This document shows positions 1,064-50,363 of a stretch of 64,000 nt of DNA, in pieces. The stretch covers positions 2,668,001-2,732,000 of the forward strand of contig NZ_CP119566.1 of assembly GCF_029277445.1 (NCBI RefSeq). Direction: 5' to 3'. The number at the start of each line of letters is the position of its first letter. Position 1 is the first letter of the stretch. A model generated the notes under the pieces. It was not told the origin of the DNA and searched no databases. It worked only from the letters and a program-made list of their open reading frames with translations. This DNA is from Pararhizobium qamdonense (lineage in GTDB: Bacteria; Pseudomonadota; Alphaproteobacteria; Rhizobiales; Rhizobiaceae). The position numbers and the translations under genes are program-made.

Positions 1064-1936
1064 TCATTCCGCCGGACCGCCAACCTGGGATTCATGAGAA
1101 AAACCATGGCTTGTCCTTCGGCCCTGCTTCCAGGCGCTCGTCGGTTCGGGCGCTTGCGGCCGCGGGATATAGCGGACGCCTTTGATCCAGAGCTTCAACG
1201 CCTCCCAGTGAATCCCTGCAACGATCTTGAGTGTAAGATGCGGGATGCGTGCAACAAGACGCAAAATCTTGCCTGTTTTCAACGGCACCTGCACACCCGA
1301 AAAGGTGGCCGCCAGCAAGGGCCCTTCGGTGTCGGTTTCCAGAATACGCCAGCGGATCTCCTCTCCGGGCGGGAGCATGCGAAACTGATAGCGCATGGCC
1401 ATCGGAATGAACGGCGAGACATGAAACAGCTTGTCGCATTGCTGGCGGATGCCGGCATCCGAAACGTCGCCGGGTCCGATCGGGCAGACATAGGTATGGC
1501 GCTCGCCGAACGTGTTGCGGACCTCATAGACCATGGCACTCAGCGTGCCATCGTCCGCATAGGCATAGTAGACAGAGAGAGGATTGAAGACGAGGCCGAG
1601 GATGCGCGGGTAGCACACCAGAAGCACACGCGCCGGCCGCACCGCCAGGCCATTCTGCGCCAGGAGATCGTCGATATAGCTGCGCAGCGAAAGGCCATCC
1701 TTGCGGGTATGGTCCTTTTCATGGAACGAGAGAAGATTGCGGCGGTTGACCGAAAAGACTGCGCTCAAGCGGTCCGCTTCGTCCAGCCGGTCGAGATCGA
1801 CCATCAGCGAAAACACGTCATAGCTGAACCTGTGACCGACAGGCTTCATCCGCTGGTGCATGACCTGGCCGGAAAAGAGCACCGCCGCTTGCGCGGGTGG
1901 CGCTCCGTTCTTTGCCATGTGCGAGCCGGGACGCAT
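1064..1936 (-). CDS. DUF1365 domain-containing protein
   Basis: The 290-residue protein matches the DUF1365 pattern seen beside CFA synthase genes: VLFSGQVMHQRMKPVGHRF near the N-terminus, then LVCYPRILGLVFNPLSVYYAY and a YEVRNTFGERHTY segment. The biochemical role of DUF1365 is unknown; genomic association suggests unusual fatty-acid modification at the membrane. The chosen start is the ATG at 1936, next to the stop of the FAD oxidoreductase, because GGAG lies just upstream (GGAGTAAATG) and implies translational coupling. An internal Met at 1918 is possible but has no visible ribosome binding site. About 43 bp separate the gene from cfa. Confidence 0.85.
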   Translation of the reverse strand: MRPGSHMAKNGAPPAQAAVLFSGQVMHQRMKPVGHRFSYDVFSLMVDLDRLDEADRLSAVFSVNRRNLLSFHEKDHTRKDGLSLRSYIDDLLAQNGLAVRPARVLLVCYPRILGLVFNPLSVYYAYADDGTLSAMVYEVRNTFGERHTYVCPIGPGDVSDAGIRQQCDKLFHVSPFIPMAMRYQFRMLPPGEEIRWRILETDTEGPLLAATFSGVQVPLKTGKILRLVARIPHLTLKIVAGIHWEALKLWIKGVRYIPRPQAPEPTSAWKQGRRTSHGFSHESQVGGPAE

Positions 1937-3280
1937 TTACTCCGCCGCCTCCTTGAAGATTGAGGAAACCTGCTCACGCCATGGAATGATGCCGCCAAGG
2001 GCTTCGGCTGCGGCAAGGCCGGATGACAGGCCGTCCTCATGGAAACCGTACCCTGTCCAGGCACCGGCAAAGAAGGTGTTGTTGTCGCCTTGAATGGATT
2101 TCAGATCGCGCTGGGCAGCCATCGAGCGGGCGTCGAACTGCGGATGATCATAGGAGAATTCGGCAAAGACCTTGTCCGCAGCCGGCTCACGCTCCGGATT
2201 GAGGGTGACGAACAGCGGGTGCTGCGGCGCGATCCCCTGAAGGCGGTTCATCCAGTAGCTGACGGCAACACCCTGCGATCCGCAGGGTTTGGTCGAGCGC
2301 AGATAGTTCCACGATGCCCAGACCTTCGGGCGTTTCGGCATCAATGCCGTGTCCCGGTGGAGAATGACGCGATTGGCATGATAGGGCACTGCCGACAGAA
2401 GCGCGCGCTCTGCTGGTGTCGGATCCGATAGCATCGCCAGCGCCTGGTTGCTGTGGGCGGCGATGATCACCTTGTCGAAGACTTTCGTTGCACCCTGCGT
2501 GTCGGTGATGATGACCCGGCCGTCTTCCCGCCGCAGCGAGCGCACGCCGCAGCCGAGATGGACGCGGTCACCCAGCGGCTGCAGAAGCTTGTGCAGATAG
2601 TTGCGGCTGCCGCCGGTTACCGTGCGCCAAGGATGCGGCTTGGAATAGATCAGGCGATGGTTGTCGAAGAACTGGATGAAATTTTCGGCCGGAAATTCCA
2701 GCATCTTCGCTGTCGGCGACGACCAGATCGCCGCCGCCATCGGCGCAAGATAATTGTTGGTGAAACCGGGTGAAAAACCGCGCCAGTTGAGATAATCGCC
2801 GATCGACATCGCCTGAAGCAGGCCGGCACTGCGGTCTTCCAGGCAAATGCGGTTGAAGCGCAGGATTTCGCGCAGCATCATTAGAAAGGACGGGCGGACA
2901 AGATTGCGCTTCTGGGCAAACACGGTTGCCAGATTGTCGCCGCTCCATTCCAGCCGGCCATGATCCAGCGAGACGGAAAAGCTCATGTCGCTCTTGTGCG
3001 TCGTCACGTCCAGCTCGGCAAACAAGGCCGTGAGATTGGGATAATTGGCCTCGTTATAGACGATGAAGCCGGTATCGACCGACAGCGGCGTACCGTCATA
3101 GTCGATATCAACCGTGGCCGTGTGCCCGCCCGCCCGCTCGTCCTTCTCGTAAAGCGTGACATCATGGACGGGATTGAGCGCCCATGCGGCGGAGCTGCCG
3201 GAAACGCCGGAGCCGATCACGGCGATCGACAGACGGCGGCCGGGAGAATGGTGGGGACCATGGGAAAAGGGGGCGTTCAT
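1937..3280 (-). CDS. FAD/NAD(P)-dependent oxidoreductase of the amine-oxidase/phytoene-desaturase type
   Basis: The 447-residue protein begins after a short leader with a Rossmann dinucleotide-binding motif, IAVIGSGVSGSSAAWAL (about residues 19-35), and the following YEKDERAGGH acidic/glycine segment. This is characteristic of flavin amine oxidases and desaturases. The C-terminal FFAGAWTGYGFHEDGLSSG is the usual second FAD contact. Homologues sit next to DUF1365 and CFA synthase in many proteobacteria and are annotated as FAD-dependent oxidoreductases; a dehydrogenation or desaturation step on membrane lipids is inferred. The start overlaps the photolyase stop by 4 bp (ATGA) and the stop abuts the DUF1365 start, so the genes are almost certainly co-translated. 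Confidence 0.9.
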   Translation of the reverse strand: MNAPFSHGPHHSPGRRLSIAVIGSGVSGSSAAWALNPVHDVTLYEKDERAGGHTATVDIDYDGTPLSVDTGFIVYNEANYPNLTALFAELDVTTHKSDMSFSVSLDHGRLEWSGDNLATVFAQKRNLVRPSFLMMLREILRFNRICLEDRSAGLLQAMSIGDYLNWRGFSPGFTNNYLAPMAAAIWSSPTAKMLEFPAENFIQFFDNHRLIYSKPHPWRTVTGGSRNYLHKLLQPLGDRVHLGCGVRSLRREDGRVIITDTQGATKVFDKVIIAAHSNQALAMLSDPTPAERALLSAVPYHANRVILHRDTALMPKRPKVWASWNYLRSTKPCGSQGVAVSYWMNRLQGIAPQHPLFVTLNPEREPAADKVFAEFSYDHPQFDARSMAAQRDLKSIQGDNNTFFAGAWTGYGFHEDGLSSGLAAAEALGGIIPWREQVSSIFKEAAE

Positions 3281-8194: not shown

Positions 8195-8908
8195 ATGCTG
8201 ACCCGCAAGCAACAGGAACTGCTTCTGTTCATTCACGAAAGAATGAAGGAATCGGGGGTACCGCCGTCCTTTGACGAAATGAAGGATGCACTGGACCTTG
8301 CGTCGAAATCCGGCATCCACCGGTTGATTACAGCACTTGAAGAGCGCGGCTTCATCCGGCGCCTGCCCAACCGGGCAAGAGCGCTTGAGGTGATCAAGCT
8401 GCCGGAAGCCTATTCCACCAGCCTGCAGCCCAAGCGCGGCTTTTCGCCCAGCGTCATCCAGGGAAGCCTGGGCGCACAGCCGGCGCCGCCTCCGGCACCC
8501 GTCAAGACCGCAGCCAATAGTGACACCGTCTCCATTCCCGTCATGGGCAGGATCGCGGCCGGCGTGCCGATCTCCGCGATCCAGAATAACACTCATGATA
8601 TTTCCGTGCCTCTCGAAATGGTCGGTGCCGGCGAGCACTATGCGCTTGAAGTGCGCGGCGATTCGATGATCGAGGCCGGCATTCTGGATGGCGACACGGT
8701 CATCATCCGCAATACCAATAGCGCCAGCCCAGGCGAGATCATCGTTGCGCTTGTCGATGACGAGGAAGCGACGCTGAAGCGGTTTCGCCGGAAGGGCGCT
8801 TCGATTGCGCTGGAAGCCGCCAATCCTGCGTATGAGACGCGCATCTTCGGGCCGGACCGGGTCAAGATTCAGGGGAAACTGGTCGGATTGATCCGCCGGT
8901 ATCATTGA
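8195..8908 (+). CDS. lexA: LexA repressor (SOS regulator)
   Basis: The 237-residue protein begins [19 protein letters not shown], with the winged-helix DNA-binding domain ([28 protein letters not shown], about residues 25-55). After a linker rich in Ala/Pro, the S24 autoprotease domain has the Ala-Gly cleavage site in GRIAAGVPI, the nucleophile Ser in [15 protein letters not shown] and the general-base Lys in ATLKRF. RecA-ssDNA filaments trigger self-cleavage and derepress DNA repair genes. Length is typical for Rhizobiales. Operators in its own promoter show autoregulation. Confidence 0.97.
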
Positions 8909-9159
8909 TTGCATCGTCGATCGTTTTTTGATGGAAACGCGGCAATCCCAACGGCTGGCATTGCCCGATCATAAATGGCAGGTGCGCAACGGTCTGATCC
9001 AGGATATGGGGCAGGGACGTGCGCAGCTTCAGACTGTGGAAGACTGGCTCGGGAACGTCCGTTGGCAAATTAACACGGACGTTTTTCAGAAATATCCTCT
9101 TGCGATTTGTTTGGGATCATTCTAAACCGCCGCCACAGTTCGATGATTTGAGCTGACGA

Positions 9160-9233
9160 GGCCTCGTGGCGGAGTGGTGACGCAGAGGACTGCAAATCCT
9201 TGCACCCCGGTTCAATTCCGGGCGAGGCCTCCA
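9160..9233 (+). tRNA. tRNA-Cys (GCA)
   Basis: A 74-nt cloverleaf with acceptor stem GGCCTCG / CGAGGCC, anticodon loop CTGCAAA (GCA), T-arm GGTTCAATTCC and encoded CCA (9231-9233). Its 3' half is duplicated 1,259 bp downstream. Confidence 0.96.
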
Positions 9234-9241
9234 AATTTTCC
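9188..9241 (+). repeat. 54-bp direct repeat, left copy (tRNA-Cys 3' half; att-like)
   Basis: This covers the anticodon loop to 8 bp past CCA. It is identical over 54 bp to 10447-10500. Duplication of a tRNA 3' end is the usual footprint of site-specific integration. Confidence 0.9.
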
Positions 9242-9258
9242 ATATTTCAATATGATAC

Positions 9259-9287
9259 AGGGTGCCGACAACGGCACCCTTTATTTT
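9259..9287 (+). terminator. Terminator after tRNA-Cys
   Basis: The 9-bp stem AGGGTGCCG / CGGCACCCT with an ACAA loop is followed by TTTATTTT. It lies inside the island, after the left repeat. Confidence 0.8.
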
Positions 9288-9485
9288 CTTGTCGCTCCAT
9301 GTTGCAAGGCACTTCCCGTAATTTTCAAGGGTTTCAATCTGATGACCGCGCCTCCATGCAACATGCGAATCGAAGGTCATCGGGATTCAAGGGGATAAAG
9401 GGTACAACACGTATTGCGGAGTGCATCTTCAGCGTAAGCTCATGAGGAATGATGCGAAAGCGCGAGTGCCAGGCGGAGGCAGCGA

Positions 9486-10052
9486 ATGAAAGTTTTTTCA
9501 GCCACTGACACCAATCCCGCTTTGGCTTCTGCACTAGGTCGTTTTGCCCAGGCCAGTGCTCACCTCGAGCATTCCATTCAGGATGCGATTATTCGGATTC
9601 TACCGCTCACATCGGAAATGGGTCTTGCTATTTTATATGAGAGCAGCATCGGCAGAGACCTTCAAATTCTAAGTCTTCTGCTACAACTTCCCGAAACGTC
9701 GGTGGCTGACGAATGGCGGGAAAAGCTCTTGCAACGTATACCGCTTGTGCAGGACAGCATCGAAGTCCGCAACCGTCTCTTACATAACCCGATTATGGTG
9801 GGAGATCGCTCGCTCGTTGTCCAAATGCATCGCCGTGGCAAGCGTAGCGCACTTGAGATTGATGTGGCCACCATCCTGACTTGGGCGCAGGAGGCTTCCG
9901 AGCACGCATTCTGGTTCGGGACTGTCCCGCACGGAGATTATGATTTCTCTACGTGGGGTAGGGGCTTTGCAGACTATCAAAACACCGATTGGCCGGCACG
10001 ACGGAATAGGTCTTCTCGGAAGTTCAGAACACCCATGAAAACTGAGGAATGA
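9486..10052 (+). CDS. Hypothetical protein with HEPN-type RNxxxH motif
   Basis: The 188-residue protein is not recognised as a named family. It looks all-helical, with an amphipathic N-terminal helix (ALASALGRFAQASAHLEHSI) and a central SIEVRNRLLHNP segment. In that segment R95-N96-x3-H100 fits the RNxxxH signature of HEPN-superfamily RNases, often used in abortive infection and toxin-antitoxin systems. The C-terminal third is aromatic-rich (AFWFGTVPHGDYDFSTWGRGF) and then basic. A strong ribosome binding site (GGAGGCAGCGA) precedes the ATG. A co-directional gene starts 22 bp downstream, suggesting a two-gene cassette. The RNase role is inference from one motif and context. Confidence 0.6.
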   Translation: MKVFSATDTNPALASALGRFAQASAHLEHSIQDAIIRILPLTSEMGLAILYESSIGRDLQILSLLLQLPETSVADEWREKLLQRIPLVQDSIEVRNRLLHNPIMVGDRSLVVQMHRRGKRSALEIDVATILTWAQEASEHAFWFGTVPHGDYDFSTWGRGFADYQNTDWPARRNRSSRKFRTPMKTEE

Positions 10053-10074
10053 CGCGCGAGGAGGGATAAATCAC

Positions 10075-10362
10075 ATGGATTGGTCTACCGTTTCTGAAGA
10101 TCAGTTGTTTGAACACGGCGGGGAGCAACCCGGCTCCCAAAGATCGTACGATCGCGACCTCGAAATCCGGCGACGTGTTTTCAAGTTTGAGAAAACAGCC
10201 GCTGAAGCGCAAATCGCGGCGGCAAGTGCAACTGTGAAAGCTGCTGATGCCACTGTCTCGACGGCAAGGTGGACGATGATCTCTGCGATTGCGGTTGGGC
10301 TCACCATTGTCGTCACAGGGATCGGCATCTGGGTAGATGCATTTTTCAAATCTGCGGGCTGA
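10075..10362 (+). CDS. Small single-pass membrane protein, partner of the HEPN-motif gene
   Basis: The 95-residue protein has a charged N-terminal half (RSYDRDLEIRRRVFKFEKTAAEAQ), an Ala-rich helix, and one C-terminal transmembrane segment (ARWTMISAIAVGLTIVVTGIGIWV) ending in a short tail. No family is recognised. A GAGGAGGG ribosome binding site lies before the ATG. Spacing of 22 bp from the upstream gene indicates one transcript. As a membrane partner of a helical RNase-like protein it could be an antitoxin, anchor or effector, but none of these is shown by sequence. Confidence 0.6.
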   Translation: MDWSTVSEDQLFEHGGEQPGSQRSYDRDLEIRRRVFKFEKTAAEAQIAAASATVKAADATVSTARWTMISAIAVGLTIVVTGIGIWVDAFFKSAG

Positions 10363-10446
10363 CTGCGTCACAAATCCGGACGCAGTGGGAAATTCCCACG
10401 ACGCTCTTACTATCGGATTATCAGACAGCCAGACCTCAAAACTGAA

Positions 10447-10500
10447 GACTGCAAATCCTTGCACCCCGGTTCAATTCCGGGCGAGGCCTCCAAATTTTCC
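10447..10500 (+). repeat. 54-bp direct repeat, right copy (tRNA-Cys 3' fragment)
   Basis: Identical to 9188-9241. The 5' half of the tRNA is absent, so this copy is not a functional tRNA gene and marks the right end of the island. Confidence 0.9.
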
Positions 10501-10693
10501 CAGATTGAAAATACCGTCGTGGTGTCAGCGGCACGAGGATTTCGTGAGCTTGCTTAGCAATCGATTTGCTTTATGTGCGCCGGGATTATCTCGCTACCCT
10601 TCTCCACAAACAGCTTAAACACCCTGCCTCATAGGCTTGGCCGACGCGAACATCGTGTCAATATGCTCTCATAGGGTGTGGTAGGGTGTATTC

Positions 10694-10897
10694 ATGGGAC
10701 GCATCATTATCTGGATCATTTGCGGCTTTGTGACTGCAGTCATTGCTTCAAGAAAATGGCGGAGCGGTTTCAGTTGGCTGCTTGTCTGTTCGCTTTTCGG
10801 GGTTTTTTGGGCTTATCCCTACGATGAAGCCAGAACGAGTCGCAATCGCATCAGCTCGATAGTCAATCGACGGCCGGCCCACTCGACGTTTCCCTGA
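10694..10897 (+). CDS. Small hypothetical membrane protein
   Basis: This 67-codon ORF opens with a hydrophobic segment (IIIWIICGFVTAVIA) followed by a second one (FSWLLVCSLFGVFWAYPYDEA) and a basic tail. GTGTGGTAGGGTGT precedes the ATG but is a weak ribosome binding site. No homologue is recognised. It lies alone just outside the tRNA-Cys island and could be a genuine short gene or chance. Confidence 0.35.
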   Translation: MGRIIIWIICGFVTAVIASRKWRSGFSWLLVCSLFGVFWAYPYDEARTSRNRISSIVNRRPAHSTFP

Positions 10898-11047
10898 ATG
10901 TGCTGAAACCATTTTTAAGGGAAGCCAAAGTCAGTCAGCAGTGCGGGCACCTTATCGCCGCCTAAGCTGACAATTTTTCAGCAGGATTCTTTGCAATCTC
11001 TATCGCTGATAACTCTGTCCTTTGGCTTTTATGCAAGCGGTACACCG

Positions 11048-11266
11048 TTAATGATAGTAGAAACAGGCGCAATCGGCTTTGCTATCATCCGGTGCCGTCC
11101 AGACCCGCACAGCGAGTTTTTTGGCCGTTCCGGTCTCATCCAATCTTAGTCCCAACAGCGATACGGCCGCGAGCTTGGGGTTGATGGCATCGATTTCGAT
11201 CGTCGATCCGACCTGATGGACGCCCTGTTTTGGGGTCCAGGTGAAAAACTGCACGCTGTAATGCAT
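11048..11266 (-). CDS. Hypothetical protein, 72 aa
   Basis: A start at 11266 (MHYSVQFFTWTPKQG) is chosen over 11296 because GAAGGAGAATGCC precedes it, a good ribosome binding site. The product is a mixed alpha/beta-looking soluble protein with TIEIDAINPKLAAVSLLGL and a WTAPDDSKADCACFYYH tail. No family is recognised. It is flanked by non-coding DNA on both sides. Confidence 0.5.
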   Translation of the reverse strand: MHYSVQFFTWTPKQGVHQVGSTIEIDAINPKLAAVSLLGLRLDETGTAKKLAVRVWTAPDDSKADCACFYYH

Positions 11267-11672
11267 GGCATTCTCCTTCACCGCGCTTTGCAGCACTTGA
11301 GTTCAACTGATGAACAGACGCCAAAAGACGCTGGCCAGGGGGCGTTTCACTGCTGGGTGGGTACTCAATGCGTAGGAGGGCAACATAGCATATTTCGGAA
11401 GGTGGTGAAATATGCCTAAGCCTATTTAAGTCCGATGGTCATGCACTATCGCCGATGCGTCCGAAGCGGGCCTAACGGTCTGGAACAGATTGTTAAAATT
11501 GGTTTGAGCAGGCGACTTCACGCGCACTTGAACAGTCTGAGCGGATGAAGGGTCGAATATCGAGCAGCAAAGCCGGCTCGACGCGTCGCGTAGCGCTGAT
11601 GGATCAGGCGGTTTTATTGTCACATTGATAAGGCCGAAACACGCGCCGGTGTGCGAAAAATGTACAAAACCC
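11267..11672. other. Intergenic region without recognisable content
   Basis: Nothing convincing is visible here: only short ORFs without ribosome binding sites, no tRNA and no strong repeat. Confidence 0.5.
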
Positions 11673-11864
11673 TTACGGACAGATGCCGCCGATCGCGCAG
11701 GATCTTCGTGCGCCCTTGTAGGGCTTGCCGGTTGTATCCGCGTTGGAAAATCCGGGGGTCGGCCGCACGGCCTGCTGTGGCGGCGAGACGAGCAAAAAGA
11801 GGGTCCAGAGAGCAAGGCCACTCAAAACAGCGCAGATCGCAATATAGGCATAGAAAATCCGCAC
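11673..11864 (-). CDS. Small hypothetical membrane protein (GTG start)
   Basis: This 63-codon ORF starts with GTG and encodes one transmembrane segment (YAYIAICAVLSGLALWTLFLLV) and a Pro-rich then Gly/Cys-containing tail. Such short single-pass proteins are common orphan genes in Rhizobiaceae. AAGGAA lies rather far upstream, so the call is tentative. Confidence 0.35.
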   Translation of the reverse strand: MRIFYAYIAICAVLSGLALWTLFLLVSPPQQAVRPTPGFSNADTTGKPYKGARRSCAIGGICP

Positions 11865-12647
11865 GGTATTGCCAGCTATGTTTCCTTAAGAGGTTGGACC
11901 AAGAGTTTGGACGTTGAAGAGGGTAGCTTAAGTGTCAGCATGGCTTGGGCGGGGCATGGCACGACACTATAAACAAAAATGCCATGCCCCTATGGCGTTC
12001 AAGGCCAACGCTTTTTTGTAGCCGCCGGCGCCAAACGAGACAATTCCGACATAAGGCGCGCGGGATACGGCCTTTGGACGAGGGCGGTTTAAGCGGAGCG
12101 TAGTGACCACTTCGGTTTTACGATCCGGCCGCCATGCTCCGTCATCACGGCAGTTTTCATCCCTAGCACAATGGTGAATGGACAATTAAATTAGGCAAAG
12201 CTAATTTAATTGGGCTGTTACCTTGGCGAAGACCGGAACAGCATATTTTCGAAGCCGTTTTCAATTCTGCCTATTGGGTCTACGTATTGGGGATTTTTTT
12301 AACGATCTGCATTTGCACGGCATCGAGAACCCGTCATCTGATCCGGTGACGGGTTCTTGCCACGCTGGTTGTTGTGAACATCCGGAATAGAGGTGTTGCT
12401 GCCTTTCGCAGGCTTTATGTCGCGAAAGACGGCTTGGGGAAGGGTGGATGCGCCGGTCATCCAGCAATGATTGTGATATGAAATCAAATATATAAGCGGC
12501 GTTCATGGCGGGCTGCGCCTGACGATGATGAGCACTACGTCTACGCTATAGCGCTCTAATCCCGCAATCGTCTTGATTGATTGCGAGGAGGCGATCGCGG
12601 TTCCTGCGAGAACTCTCGCGAGACATCGACTCGATGCGCGGAAACAG
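11865..12647. other. Intergenic region with three strong inverted repeats
   Basis: No convincing gene is present. Three hairpins stand out. GGGGCATGGCA / TGCCATGCCCC (11951-11961 / 11980-11990) has 11-bp arms. CAATTAAATTAG / CTAATTTAATTG (12183-12194 / 12201-12212) has 12-bp arms and a 6-nt loop. GAACCCGTCA / TGACGGGTTC (12327-12336 / 12347-12356) has 10-bp arms. None is followed by a clear T-run except weakly, so they may be operators, degraded terminators or small-RNA stems. Confidence 0.55.
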
Positions 12648-17674: not shown

Positions 17675-18157
17675 ATGGAGATGAAAAACAAAACATCTCC
17701 GAAAGCCTTGGACCTTATCAAGCGTTCTGAAGGCTGCATTCTCAAAGCGTATCTCTGCCCTGCCAATGTTCCGACAATCGGTTACGGGCATACCAAGACC
17801 GTCACTAAAGCGGATGTCAAAGCCGGTAAGCGGATCACCGCCGCCGAAGCTGAACGGCTTCTGTTGGTCGATCTGGCTGGCTTTGAAGCCGCTGTGCGTA
17901 AACTGGTGAAGGTGCCGGTCACCGACGACCAGTTCGGGGCACTGGTGTCGTTTGCGTATAACTTGGGTGAGGGCGCGTTGGCATCCTCGACGCTGTTGAA
18001 AAGAATCAACAACAAAGACGCCGTGGCGTTGATTCGTGCCTCTTGGATGCAATGGAACAAGGCGCGAGTAAACGGGGTGCTAAAGCCGCTTAAAGGACTG
18101 ACCATTCGTCGCCAAGCCGAATTCGATCTATTTCAAAATGGGGTCGCCAAAACTTGA
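17675..18157 (+). CDS. Phage endolysin, GH24 lysozyme (muramidase)
   Basis: The 160-residue protein has the GH24/T4-lysozyme pattern: catalytic Glu in LIKRSEGCILKAYLCPANVPTIGYGHT, then LSFAYN-type VSFAYNLGEGALASSTLLKRIN and a Trp-rich WMQWNKARVNGVLKPLKGLTIRRQAE ending. It cleaves peptidoglycan beta-1,4 linkages at the end of the lytic cycle. There is no signal peptide or SAR-like segment, so release needs a holin, for which 36894-37277 is a candidate. The start is uncertain between 17675 and an ATG two codons on. Confidence 0.93.
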   Translation: MEMKNKTSPKALDLIKRSEGCILKAYLCPANVPTIGYGHTKTVTKADVKAGKRITAAEAERLLLVDLAGFEAAVRKLVKVPVTDDQFGALVSFAYNLGEGALASSTLLKRINNKDAVALIRASWMQWNKARVNGVLKPLKGLTIRRQAEFDLFQNGVAKT

Positions 18158-48536: not shown

Positions 48537-49937
48537 TTAAGCGGCTTGTTTCTGAACTTCCTGTTCAGGGGTTTCAGCCAGTGCTTTCATGAGTGCTTCA
48601 AGCTTGTTTTCGAGCGGGAAGGTCTCACCATAGTGCATTTCGAATCCACGGCTGCTGTGACCCATAATGCTGTTCTTAAGATTGTCACCGCATTTGGACC
48701 CGCGCAGAGCCGTGGCAAGACGATGCCGGTATGAATAGAATGTTTTGCCTTCAGCGACCGTATCGATGATCTTGTTCGACGCCGCACTGAGGGCTTCGCT
48801 TCCGTTGTGGCGTCGGTAGCGCTCGAAACCATCGGGGAACTTCTTTAGCCATTCCAAGGCAGCACCGAACACCGGGATGTCTCGGATTCTGTCGCCATTT
48901 GATTTGACCGTATCTCGCAACTCGTTGGGGCGGATGGAAATATAGGGGATCGCCTCATTCAAGTGGATGTCAGATTTCGTAAGAAGGCAAAGCTCTTTAC
49001 AGGTAGCGCCGGTCATTGATGAGATGACGTTGAGTGCCTTTAGATCGTCGCTCGATTTGCCGCTGATGATCCGATCAAGAACCGCCTTGCACTCCTCATT
49101 GGTGAAGCCCGGACGCTTACCCTTCTTGGCTGTGCCCTCAAACTCTACGCTGTCGAAGGGGCTGGTCTTAATTCCGTAATCGACTTTCAAGACCTTGGCG
49201 GTGATCAGGCGAAGCCACATGATCTTCTTGCGACCACTGGCAAGGTCGAATTTCTTAGCGGCAATTAGCTCAACAAGCTTTTCCTTATATCCCCAAGTGT
49301 CGGCATCCTTTAGCTTTGTGACATCATGGTTCTTGCCCATTGCGCTATTCCATTCGTCGACAGCCTGAACGAATGGACGCCACTTCTTGTAACTCGCCCG
49401 CTTGTCGGTGTTCAATCCGAACTTCTCGGAACTCAATTCCCGGTATCGTTCCAATGCCTGAGACATGGTGAGCGCGGGTAGGGCGAGTCCACCAGACACG
49501 ACAGCAACGATGGTTTCGGAAGGTTTGTCGATCTTCTCGAATTTCTCGACACGGTCTGCCACCAACTCGACGAATTCTTGGGCGGATGCCGCTTTTGTGG
49601 CGGCAGTGTAATTGCCGCCAAGGAATGACTTCGCAAAAGCGGTAAAAGCGGCAAGGTTGAAATCTTCAGCGCTTGGTTCATTCCTACCGAACATCGCGTC
49701 ATATTTCTTGCGAAGCAAAAGCACCTTACCAAGCACTTTCGCTTCAGCATTCTCATCGGTGATTTTCACACCTAACGACTCACAGAAATGTTTTCGTTTT
49801 CCGAACGTATTACTCTCAGAAAGGTGCCTTGGTACTGCAATCCTGAAGTAGTACGTGTCGCCACGAATCTCAACATGCTTCATTTCCAATCGGCTTCTCC
49901 GTTTTTTGGGTTTTCTTTTAACAACTATCGGGTTCAT
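48537..49937 (-). CDS. int: Phage tyrosine integrase
   Basis: The 466-residue protein has a basic N-terminal arm-binding part (VKRKPKKRRSRLEMKHVEI, GDTYYFRIAVPRHL, of the DUF6538 type). A core-binding SAM-like region and a C-terminal catalytic domain follow. YSYRHRLATAL, GHSSRGFEMHYGE and an active-site Tyr fit the HxxR-H-Y series. The usual His of HxxR reads as Tyr, and the first catalytic Arg (TGxR) reads as Thr in TGATCKELCLL. It lies 336 bp from the tRNA-Ser attR core, the usual place for int. Inverted arm-type repeats lie between the two. Confidence 0.88.
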   Translation of the reverse strand: MNPIVVKRKPKKRRSRLEMKHVEIRGDTYYFRIAVPRHLSESNTFGKRKHFCESLGVKITDENAEAKVLGKVLLLRKKYDAMFGRNEPSAEDFNLAAFTAFAKSFLGGNYTAATKAASAQEFVELVADRVEKFEKIDKPSETIVAVVSGGLALPALTMSQALERYRELSSEKFGLNTDKRASYKKWRPFVQAVDEWNSAMGKNHDVTKLKDADTWGYKEKLVELIAAKKFDLASGRKKIMWLRLITAKVLKVDYGIKTSPFDSVEFEGTAKKGKRPGFTNEECKAVLDRIISGKSSDDLKALNVISSMTGATCKELCLLTKSDIHLNEAIPYISIRPNELRDTVKSNGDRIRDIPVFGAALEWLKKFPDGFERYRRHNGSEALSAASNKIIDTVAEGKTFYSYRHRLATALRGSKCGDNLKNSIMGHSSRGFEMHYGETFPLENKLEALMKALAETPEQEVQKQAA

Positions 49938-50273: not shown

Positions 50274-50290
50274 TGGCGGAAGAGGTGGGA
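50274..50290 (-). repeat. Prophage attR core (17 bp)
   Basis: Identical to 15126-15142. It is the 3' terminal segment of tRNA-Ser, so the integrated phage rebuilt the tRNA end. Confidence 0.85.
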
Positions 50291-50363
50291 TTCGAACCCA
50301 CGGTACGGTCTCCCGCACGCCGGTTTTCAAGACCGGTTCCTTAAACCACTCGGACACTCTTCC
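50274..50363 (-). tRNA. tRNA-Ser (TGA)
   Basis: A 90-nt minus-strand tRNA with acceptor stem GGAAGAG / CTCTTCC, discriminator G, encoded CCA, anticodon loop CTTGAAA (TGA), and the long variable arm typical of tRNA-Ser (GCGTGCGGGAGACCGTACC region). Confidence 0.97.

Follow-up and report, generated by a model that had tools for sequence, protein, structure and literature searches.

We analyzed a stretch of 64,000 nucleotides of Pararhizobium qamdonense DNA, referred to below as the window, in which a tRNA-Cys gene is followed by a small insertion (the islet) carrying two genes. The features of the islet and its borders, all on the forward strand, are as follows.

9160..9233, +: tRNA-Cys(GCA), the integration target, whose 3′ part forms the left attachment core
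9188..9241, +: attL core, left copy of the 54-bp repeat (repeat search, shuffles)
9242..9370, +: left arm common to the element of genome G021 (82.9% identity over 140 bp to locus L035), with two copies of the nonamer TGCAACATG and a hairpin at 9259-9280
9486..10052, +: ORF1, 188 aa, predicted HEPN-like, with R95-N96-x3-H100 (ORF list, family, model)
10075..10362, +: ORF2, 95 aa, one long predicted helix with one hydrophobic stretch at about residues 69-87 (ORF list, hydropathy, model)
10363..10400, +: stretch 3′ of the cargo that matches the G021 sequence just 3′ of an RNxxxH gene (31/38 identical)
10401..10446, +: remainder ahead of the right core, of unmatched origin and lacking the arm motif (best match 26/47 in 10 loci, compared over 10400-10446)
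10447..10500, +: attR core, right copy of the 54-bp repeat (repeat search, shuffles)

The 54-bp direct repeat is exact; it begins in the anticodon region of tRNA-Cys(GCA) and ends 8 bases beyond the tRNA 3′ end. Its copies can be extended to 9185-9241 and 10444-10500, which are identical at 56 of 57 positions and lie 1,259 bp apart from start to start. The repeat was found twice in the window, and two or more matches with up to three mismatches appeared in none of 100 shuffles, which ruled out a chance repeat. Neither ARAGORN nor Rfam called a tRNA at the second copy. The first-pass annotation had described two co-directional genes with ribosome binding sites and no integrase, enclosed by perfect copies of the tRNA-Cys 3′ half, and our analysis bore this out: the coordinates of both repeat copies were correct, ORF1 and ORF2 are intact with a purine-rich stretch before each start, and no integrase-like frame of at least 60 aa was seen by eye in the ORF list between the copies. 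A search of 9100-10600 for sigma-70-like promoters found none (shuffles gave a mean of 1.1), which is a weak indicator in this host. Just 3′ of tRNA-Cys, the left arm holds a strong hairpin followed by T residues at 9259-9280 (two such sites were found; the mean in shuffles was 1.3), with which the element may supply a terminator to the tRNA gene.

The insertion has a matching empty site. In G009, a genome listed under the same species, lexA and tRNA-Cys are followed by host sequence and the islet is absent. Positions 8195-9241 of the window align with 564-1612 of the G009 locus L003 at 97.2% identity, and positions 10444-11996 align with 1556-3112 at 96.2% identity, the right-hand match being extendable to 12511. 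The two flanks are thus contiguous in G009 and overlap in the repeat alone. Because the G009 site is uninterrupted, the islet is a real insertion of 1,259 bp, and the comparison with related strains that had been proposed as a check did yield an unoccupied site. The tRNA region was matched in all 26 genomes of the genus that were searched. In 13 of these loci, a conserved host marker gene stands 167-558 bp past the core, as for an unoccupied site; on the same side of the other 13, including the window's own, no host marker was found within the roughly 1.5 kb examined. An arrangement ancestral to the genus was ruled out by the empty site of G009 and the close host marker in those 13 loci. Besides the window's own genome, a second partial copy of the core was present in G002, G017 and G021 (49-54 bp) and in G022 (24 bp), and in G002 an integrase, identified by reading, adjoins it. 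The same 1.26-kb unit was absent from the other genomes among the 26 and did not occur among the matches listed for 394 genomes of the family.

ORF1 carries the RNxxxH motif exactly where the first-pass annotation had placed it (R95-N-R-L-L-H100). Its AlphaFold2 model (pLDDT 85.9, pTM 0.73) is mostly helical, with helices at 11-38, 43-49, 55-67 and 75-99, strands within 103-125 and a further helix at 127-144. As set out in part of PMC3710099, HEPN proteins carry an Rx4-6H motif where helix 3 ends or the loop to helix 4 starts, with a polar residue, mostly N, D or H, after the conserved R. In the ORF1 model, Rx4H stands at the end of the helix corresponding to helix 3 (75-99) and is followed by a loop and a hairpin. 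The polar residue after R, the extra helix between helices 2 and 3 and the beta-hairpin behind the motif are likewise shared with the HEPN RNases of that account (PMC3710099, in part), and the helix order fits a four-helix HEPN bundle. However, Foldseek searches of the model against PDB or BFVD gave no match at E <= 0.001, VIA-align returned middling bundles only, and ORF1 matched no HEPN model of Pfam, PHROGs, PADLOC or NCBIfam at E <= 1 or 10. An Ex3[KR] motif of helix 2, with the second of the conserved acids, is described in the same partial source as common though not universal (PMC3710099); it is absent from ORF1, where the invariant E28 lies in the first long helix and is followed four positions later by Q32 in place of K or R. 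The HEPN identity put forward from the motif was therefore upheld as to a mostly helical protein with Rx4H where HEPN proteins have it, but not as to a significant fold or profile match. For these reasons, we call ORF1 HEPN-like, a topology predicted from the model, and do not count it among the proven members.

Searching about 5.8 billion proteins returned three sequences of the ORF1 family, and a profile search returned 26, ORF1 included. Five named hosts besides that of ORF1 belong to Pararhizobium, Neorhizobium, Ensifer, Xanthobacter and Ancylobacter. Relatives occurred in 2 of 297 genomes and in 2 of 397 genomes of a second set (in each case the window's own and one weak match), and in 2 of the 26 genus genomes (the window's own and Pararhizobium sp. 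YC-54). Of the 26 family members, 25 retain R95 and H100; the exception, P0024, is without the whole region. Counting by eye put N after the R in 17 members and S in 8, polar as in HEPN proteins, with the region missing in one. ORF1 and its YC-54 homolog differ at 47, 26 and 108 first, second and third codon positions, a distribution which indicates that the protein was constrained between the two lineages and is uninformative about selection since the deletion discussed below. The family is not recognized by Pfam, PHROGs or PADLOC, nor ORF1 itself by NCBIfam, and the short result lists obtained from the open-access literature held no description that we recognized of either the islet or the family. 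The ORF1 family, of which 26 sequences were found, thus lies outside the libraries searched and bears the catalytic signature of HEPN RNases. In another genome, G583, a 238-aa protein with RNEVAH (L101 7824-8842) is weakly ORF1-like and is preceded by a 100-aa ORF, a possible further HEPN-type pair.

The motif might be incidental, with ORF1 a non-enzymatic helical phage protein and the two genes without a defence role. Other positions of the family are conserved equally well or better, the invariant ones being M1, A14, G18, R19, Q22, E28, R37, L39, P40, T42, G46 and L62, and the lack of a significant fold match to a HEPN RNase points the same way. However, this view has to set aside the retention of R95 and H100 in nearly the whole family, at the place in the predicted fold where known HEPN domains carry them, and we consider it rather unlikely.

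ORF2 is a single-pass membrane protein, as had been claimed: its best 19-residue Kyte-Doolittle window scores 2.23 and begins at residue 69, and its model is one long helix (pLDDT 76.2, pTM 0.38). ORF2 has its own set of relatives, comprising five sequences (its own included), six IMG/VR loci and 9 of the 394 family genomes (its own included). The relatives on viral contigs lie near terminase genes, as judged by reading. In five of the six viral contigs (L070-L074, around 9822-10273), a tRNA gene on the opposite strand lies about 90-100 bp from the start of the ORF2 relative.

ORF1 and ORF2 are adjacent, co-directional and 22 bases apart, and a HEPN-TM immune system of PICIs has been reported (PMC12948488, seen in extract; the system is also named in PMC11087260). 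In the window, a HEPN-like protein and a membrane protein are encoded side by side, as HEPN-TM is described. A two-gene HEPN and transmembrane defence or toxin-antitoxin unit would fit this arrangement. Against it, tblastn of 119 other loci, some of them overlapping, found relatives of ORF1 and ORF2 together in none: each family was found singly, ORF1 in YC-54 (a strong match) and in G256 and G583 (weak matches), and ORF2 in the six viral contigs and elsewhere. In addition, neither protein matches PADLOC. The weight of this non-co-occurrence is limited, because YC-54 is the sole strong ORF1 relative seen in context and many of the flanks span about 1.5 kb. The suggestion that the same pair forms a conserved defence module elsewhere was thus not borne out in these loci, with their one strong ORF1 relative, and we think it doubtful that ORF1 and ORF2 constitute such a unit.

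The origin of the islet is best approached through G021, in which tRNA-Cys is occupied by a prophage-like element whose ends lie on separate contigs (C70 and C71), so that the union of the two halves is our inference. The attR side encodes an integrase, a portal protein, a head protease and a major head protein. The attL side encodes an HNH protein and a 238-aa membrane protein and, adjoining the tRNA, a 175-aa RNIIVH protein and a 138-aa protein. With this element the islet shares its attachment gene, its left arm and the sequence that follows the cargo. The 38 bases behind ORF2 (10363-10400) agree at 31 positions with the sequence right behind the G021 RNxxxH gene, compared with 20-23 of 38 for the best placement in each of 12 other loci. 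By blastn, the stretch behind the cargo matched G021 with 85.7% identity over 42 bp (E 4e-7 in the set of loci, E 1.7e-5 in the G021 genome). It also matched the 3′ end of the YC-54 ORF1 homolog over a gapped 47 bp at 81% (E 6.7e-5 in a small locus set), the ungapped comparison of the 38 bases giving 22/38, which is at background level. For the last 46-47 bases before the right core, none of 10 loci compared exceeded 26/47.

The arms also differ in a repeated nonamer, TGCAACATG. The left arm holds the only two exact copies found on either strand of the 64-kb window, one inverted (9298-9306) and one direct (9357-9365), and the right arm, made up of the 84 bases behind ORF2, has none. G021 has three copies in its left arm and one exact and one near copy in its right arm, both within 57 bases of the core; G017 has two exact and two near copies on the left and one exact copy on the right. 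The right-side copies in G021 and G017 lie 46-57 bases from the core. The nonamer was found in neither arm of G002 and not in the empty site of G009. We hypothesize that this sequence, which was picked by eye from these same arms, is an integrase arm site; if so, its absence from the right side would argue against mobilization of the islet via its att sites.

The left-arm match, the 38-base match, the missing right-arm nonamer and the unmatched last 47 bases together indicate that a larger element kept its cargo end and lost the rest. We favor, as the probable explanation, that the islet is a deletion remnant of a prophage-like tRNA-Cys element and that ORF1 is most likely a HEPN-type RNase. 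The first-pass annotation had left mobilization in trans and deletion side by side; deletion gains from the match of both cargo flanks to a larger element of a congener and from a right arm without the arm motif, and mobilization in trans loses ground accordingly. No intact parent carrying ORF1 and ORF2 at tRNA-Cys was found among the 26 genus genomes. That the islet is a minimal cargo-only mobile element, an att site and two genes for whose integration and movement a related prophage would provide the integrase in trans, seems improbable to us: clean 54-bp repeats, an empty site in a relative, the lack of an integrase and the second integrase-less islet of G017 speak for it, but the right arm lacks the nonamer found in G021 and G017, the 38 bases following the cargo are those of a larger element, and the unit recurs neither in the genus genomes nor among the matches listed for the family.

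The islet of G017 (L033 4143-6628) stands at the same tRNA-Cys and measures 2.44 kb; no integrase was seen among its ORFs of at least 50 aa, one of which we take to be DUF3102-like. With the nonamer on both sides, it may still be mobilizable in trans, unlike the islet of the window.

In losing its integration genes and keeping both att copies, the islet of the window resembles a CIME, which PMC5704250, in the part consulted, describes as an att-flanked, decayed ICE or IME with the same two properties. It differs in that its source is prophage-like and not a conjugative ICE or IME, and in that its right arm lacks the putative arm sites; since its flanks match a prophage-like element, we do not class it as a CIME.

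The closest relative of ORF1 (68%) lies in Pararhizobium sp. YC-54, at the tRNA-proximal end of an element behind tRNA-Ser(GCT). This element spans 18.4 kb (G015:C2, about 362508-380919), its far bound being a 15-bp copy of the tRNA end beside an integrase. Among 10 of its proteins that were scanned, PHROG matches identified an integrase, a portal, major head and major tail proteins, a terminase large subunit, a tape measure protein and an HNH protein, and the other three belonged to families of unknown function or had no match. Replication, lysis and tail-tip genes were not recognized among its ORFs of at least 100 aa, the profile scan having covered a minority of them, and the element may be a satellite or a defective prophage. 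The islet shares with it an ORF1-type gene at the tRNA-proximal end; in contrast, the YC-54 and G021 elements possess integrase and head genes and the islet has none. No ORF2 relatives were found in the stretches of YC-54 and G021 examined.

A 220-aa membrane protein of the YC-54 element is 63% identical to the membrane protein of G021, and relatives of the YC-54 protein occurred in 5 of the 394 family genomes. In three of the five, no more than about 2 kb separates the gene from tRNA-Pro, -Thr or -Arg, and G388, which is one of the three, has an ORF read as PIN-like between the tRNA and the membrane gene; in the other two, no tRNA was found in the stretch examined. The protein in the cargo place of G021 has the RNIIVH motif, yet any similarity to ORF1 was below detection (hhalign probability 0.3%). 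These observations suggest, and do not prove, that the tRNA-proximal end of such elements is a variable cargo slot. We speculate, tentatively and against our own doubts, that the Rhizobiaceae elements of about 18 kb with head and tail genes have at this end a hot spot for RNase-type effectors that are unrelated to one another (the ORF1 family, the RNxxxH protein of 175 aa in G021 and the PIN-like protein of G388), and that ORF1 founds a new prophage-encoded family of HEPN-type defence proteins that outlives its parent element. As a separate observation, the YC-54 sequence that separates the membrane gene from the ORF1 homolog (L039 10548-11424) contains many short palindromes with differing stems, such as CCCTCAAATCTGAGGG and AGGTTTCCTCAAATTGAGGAAACCT, and the corresponding place in G021 has fewer.

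For the deletion remnant, we propose a putative course of events. A prophage-like element would have integrated into tRNA-Cys by means of a tyrosine integrase. Later, an internal deletion may have taken out the whole span from a point shortly past the cargo to the vicinity of the right core, the integrase included, so that the tRNA-proximal cargo slot survived with two intact genes. In the parent lysogen, by analogy with known systems, ORF1 might have acted as a HEPN-type RNase that cuts RNA on a phage trigger and thereby halts translation, the cell and the competing phage. ORF2, a small membrane protein with a single pass, would be of prophage-type origin; it may modulate ORF1 and seems not to be its fixed partner. 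The islet is now probably locked in place, and its genes, seen in one genome, may have become domesticated or may be drifting since the deletion.

A tRNA-bound remnant of a mobile element with its cargo is a known kind of thing, and hot spots for defence genes in phages and satellites are already on record (PMC9122126, consulted in part). The present case is a small and cleanly bounded instance of prophage-like decay down to the cargo, for which a genome of the same species offers the empty site and the tRNA-Cys of G021 a fuller relative. A functional parallel may be Tha, a prophage-encoded HEPN RNase of Staphylococcus aureus phages that stops cell and phage on infection, according to a partial view of PMC11087260. 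In both, prophage cargo includes an R-x4-H protein (RNSIMH in Tha-1), a likeness taken from the description; the same partial source gives Tha as a 301-aa protein with a C-terminal HEPN domain, paired with the inhibitor gene ith (PMC11087260). Should ORF1 turn out to be an RNase directed against phages, more undescribed effectors could be sought in the tRNA-proximal slot of such elements.

The comparison with G009 also revealed a second insertion of about 37.8 kb in the window (12512-50273), where the shared host sequence ends at 12511 and resumes at 50274. It is bordered by tRNA-Ser(TGA) at 50274-50363 and carries a phage lysozyme at 17675-18157 (PF00959, E 6.8e-42) and an integrase-like ORF at 48537-49937, identified by reading. 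This insertion is probably a prophage at tRNA-Ser.
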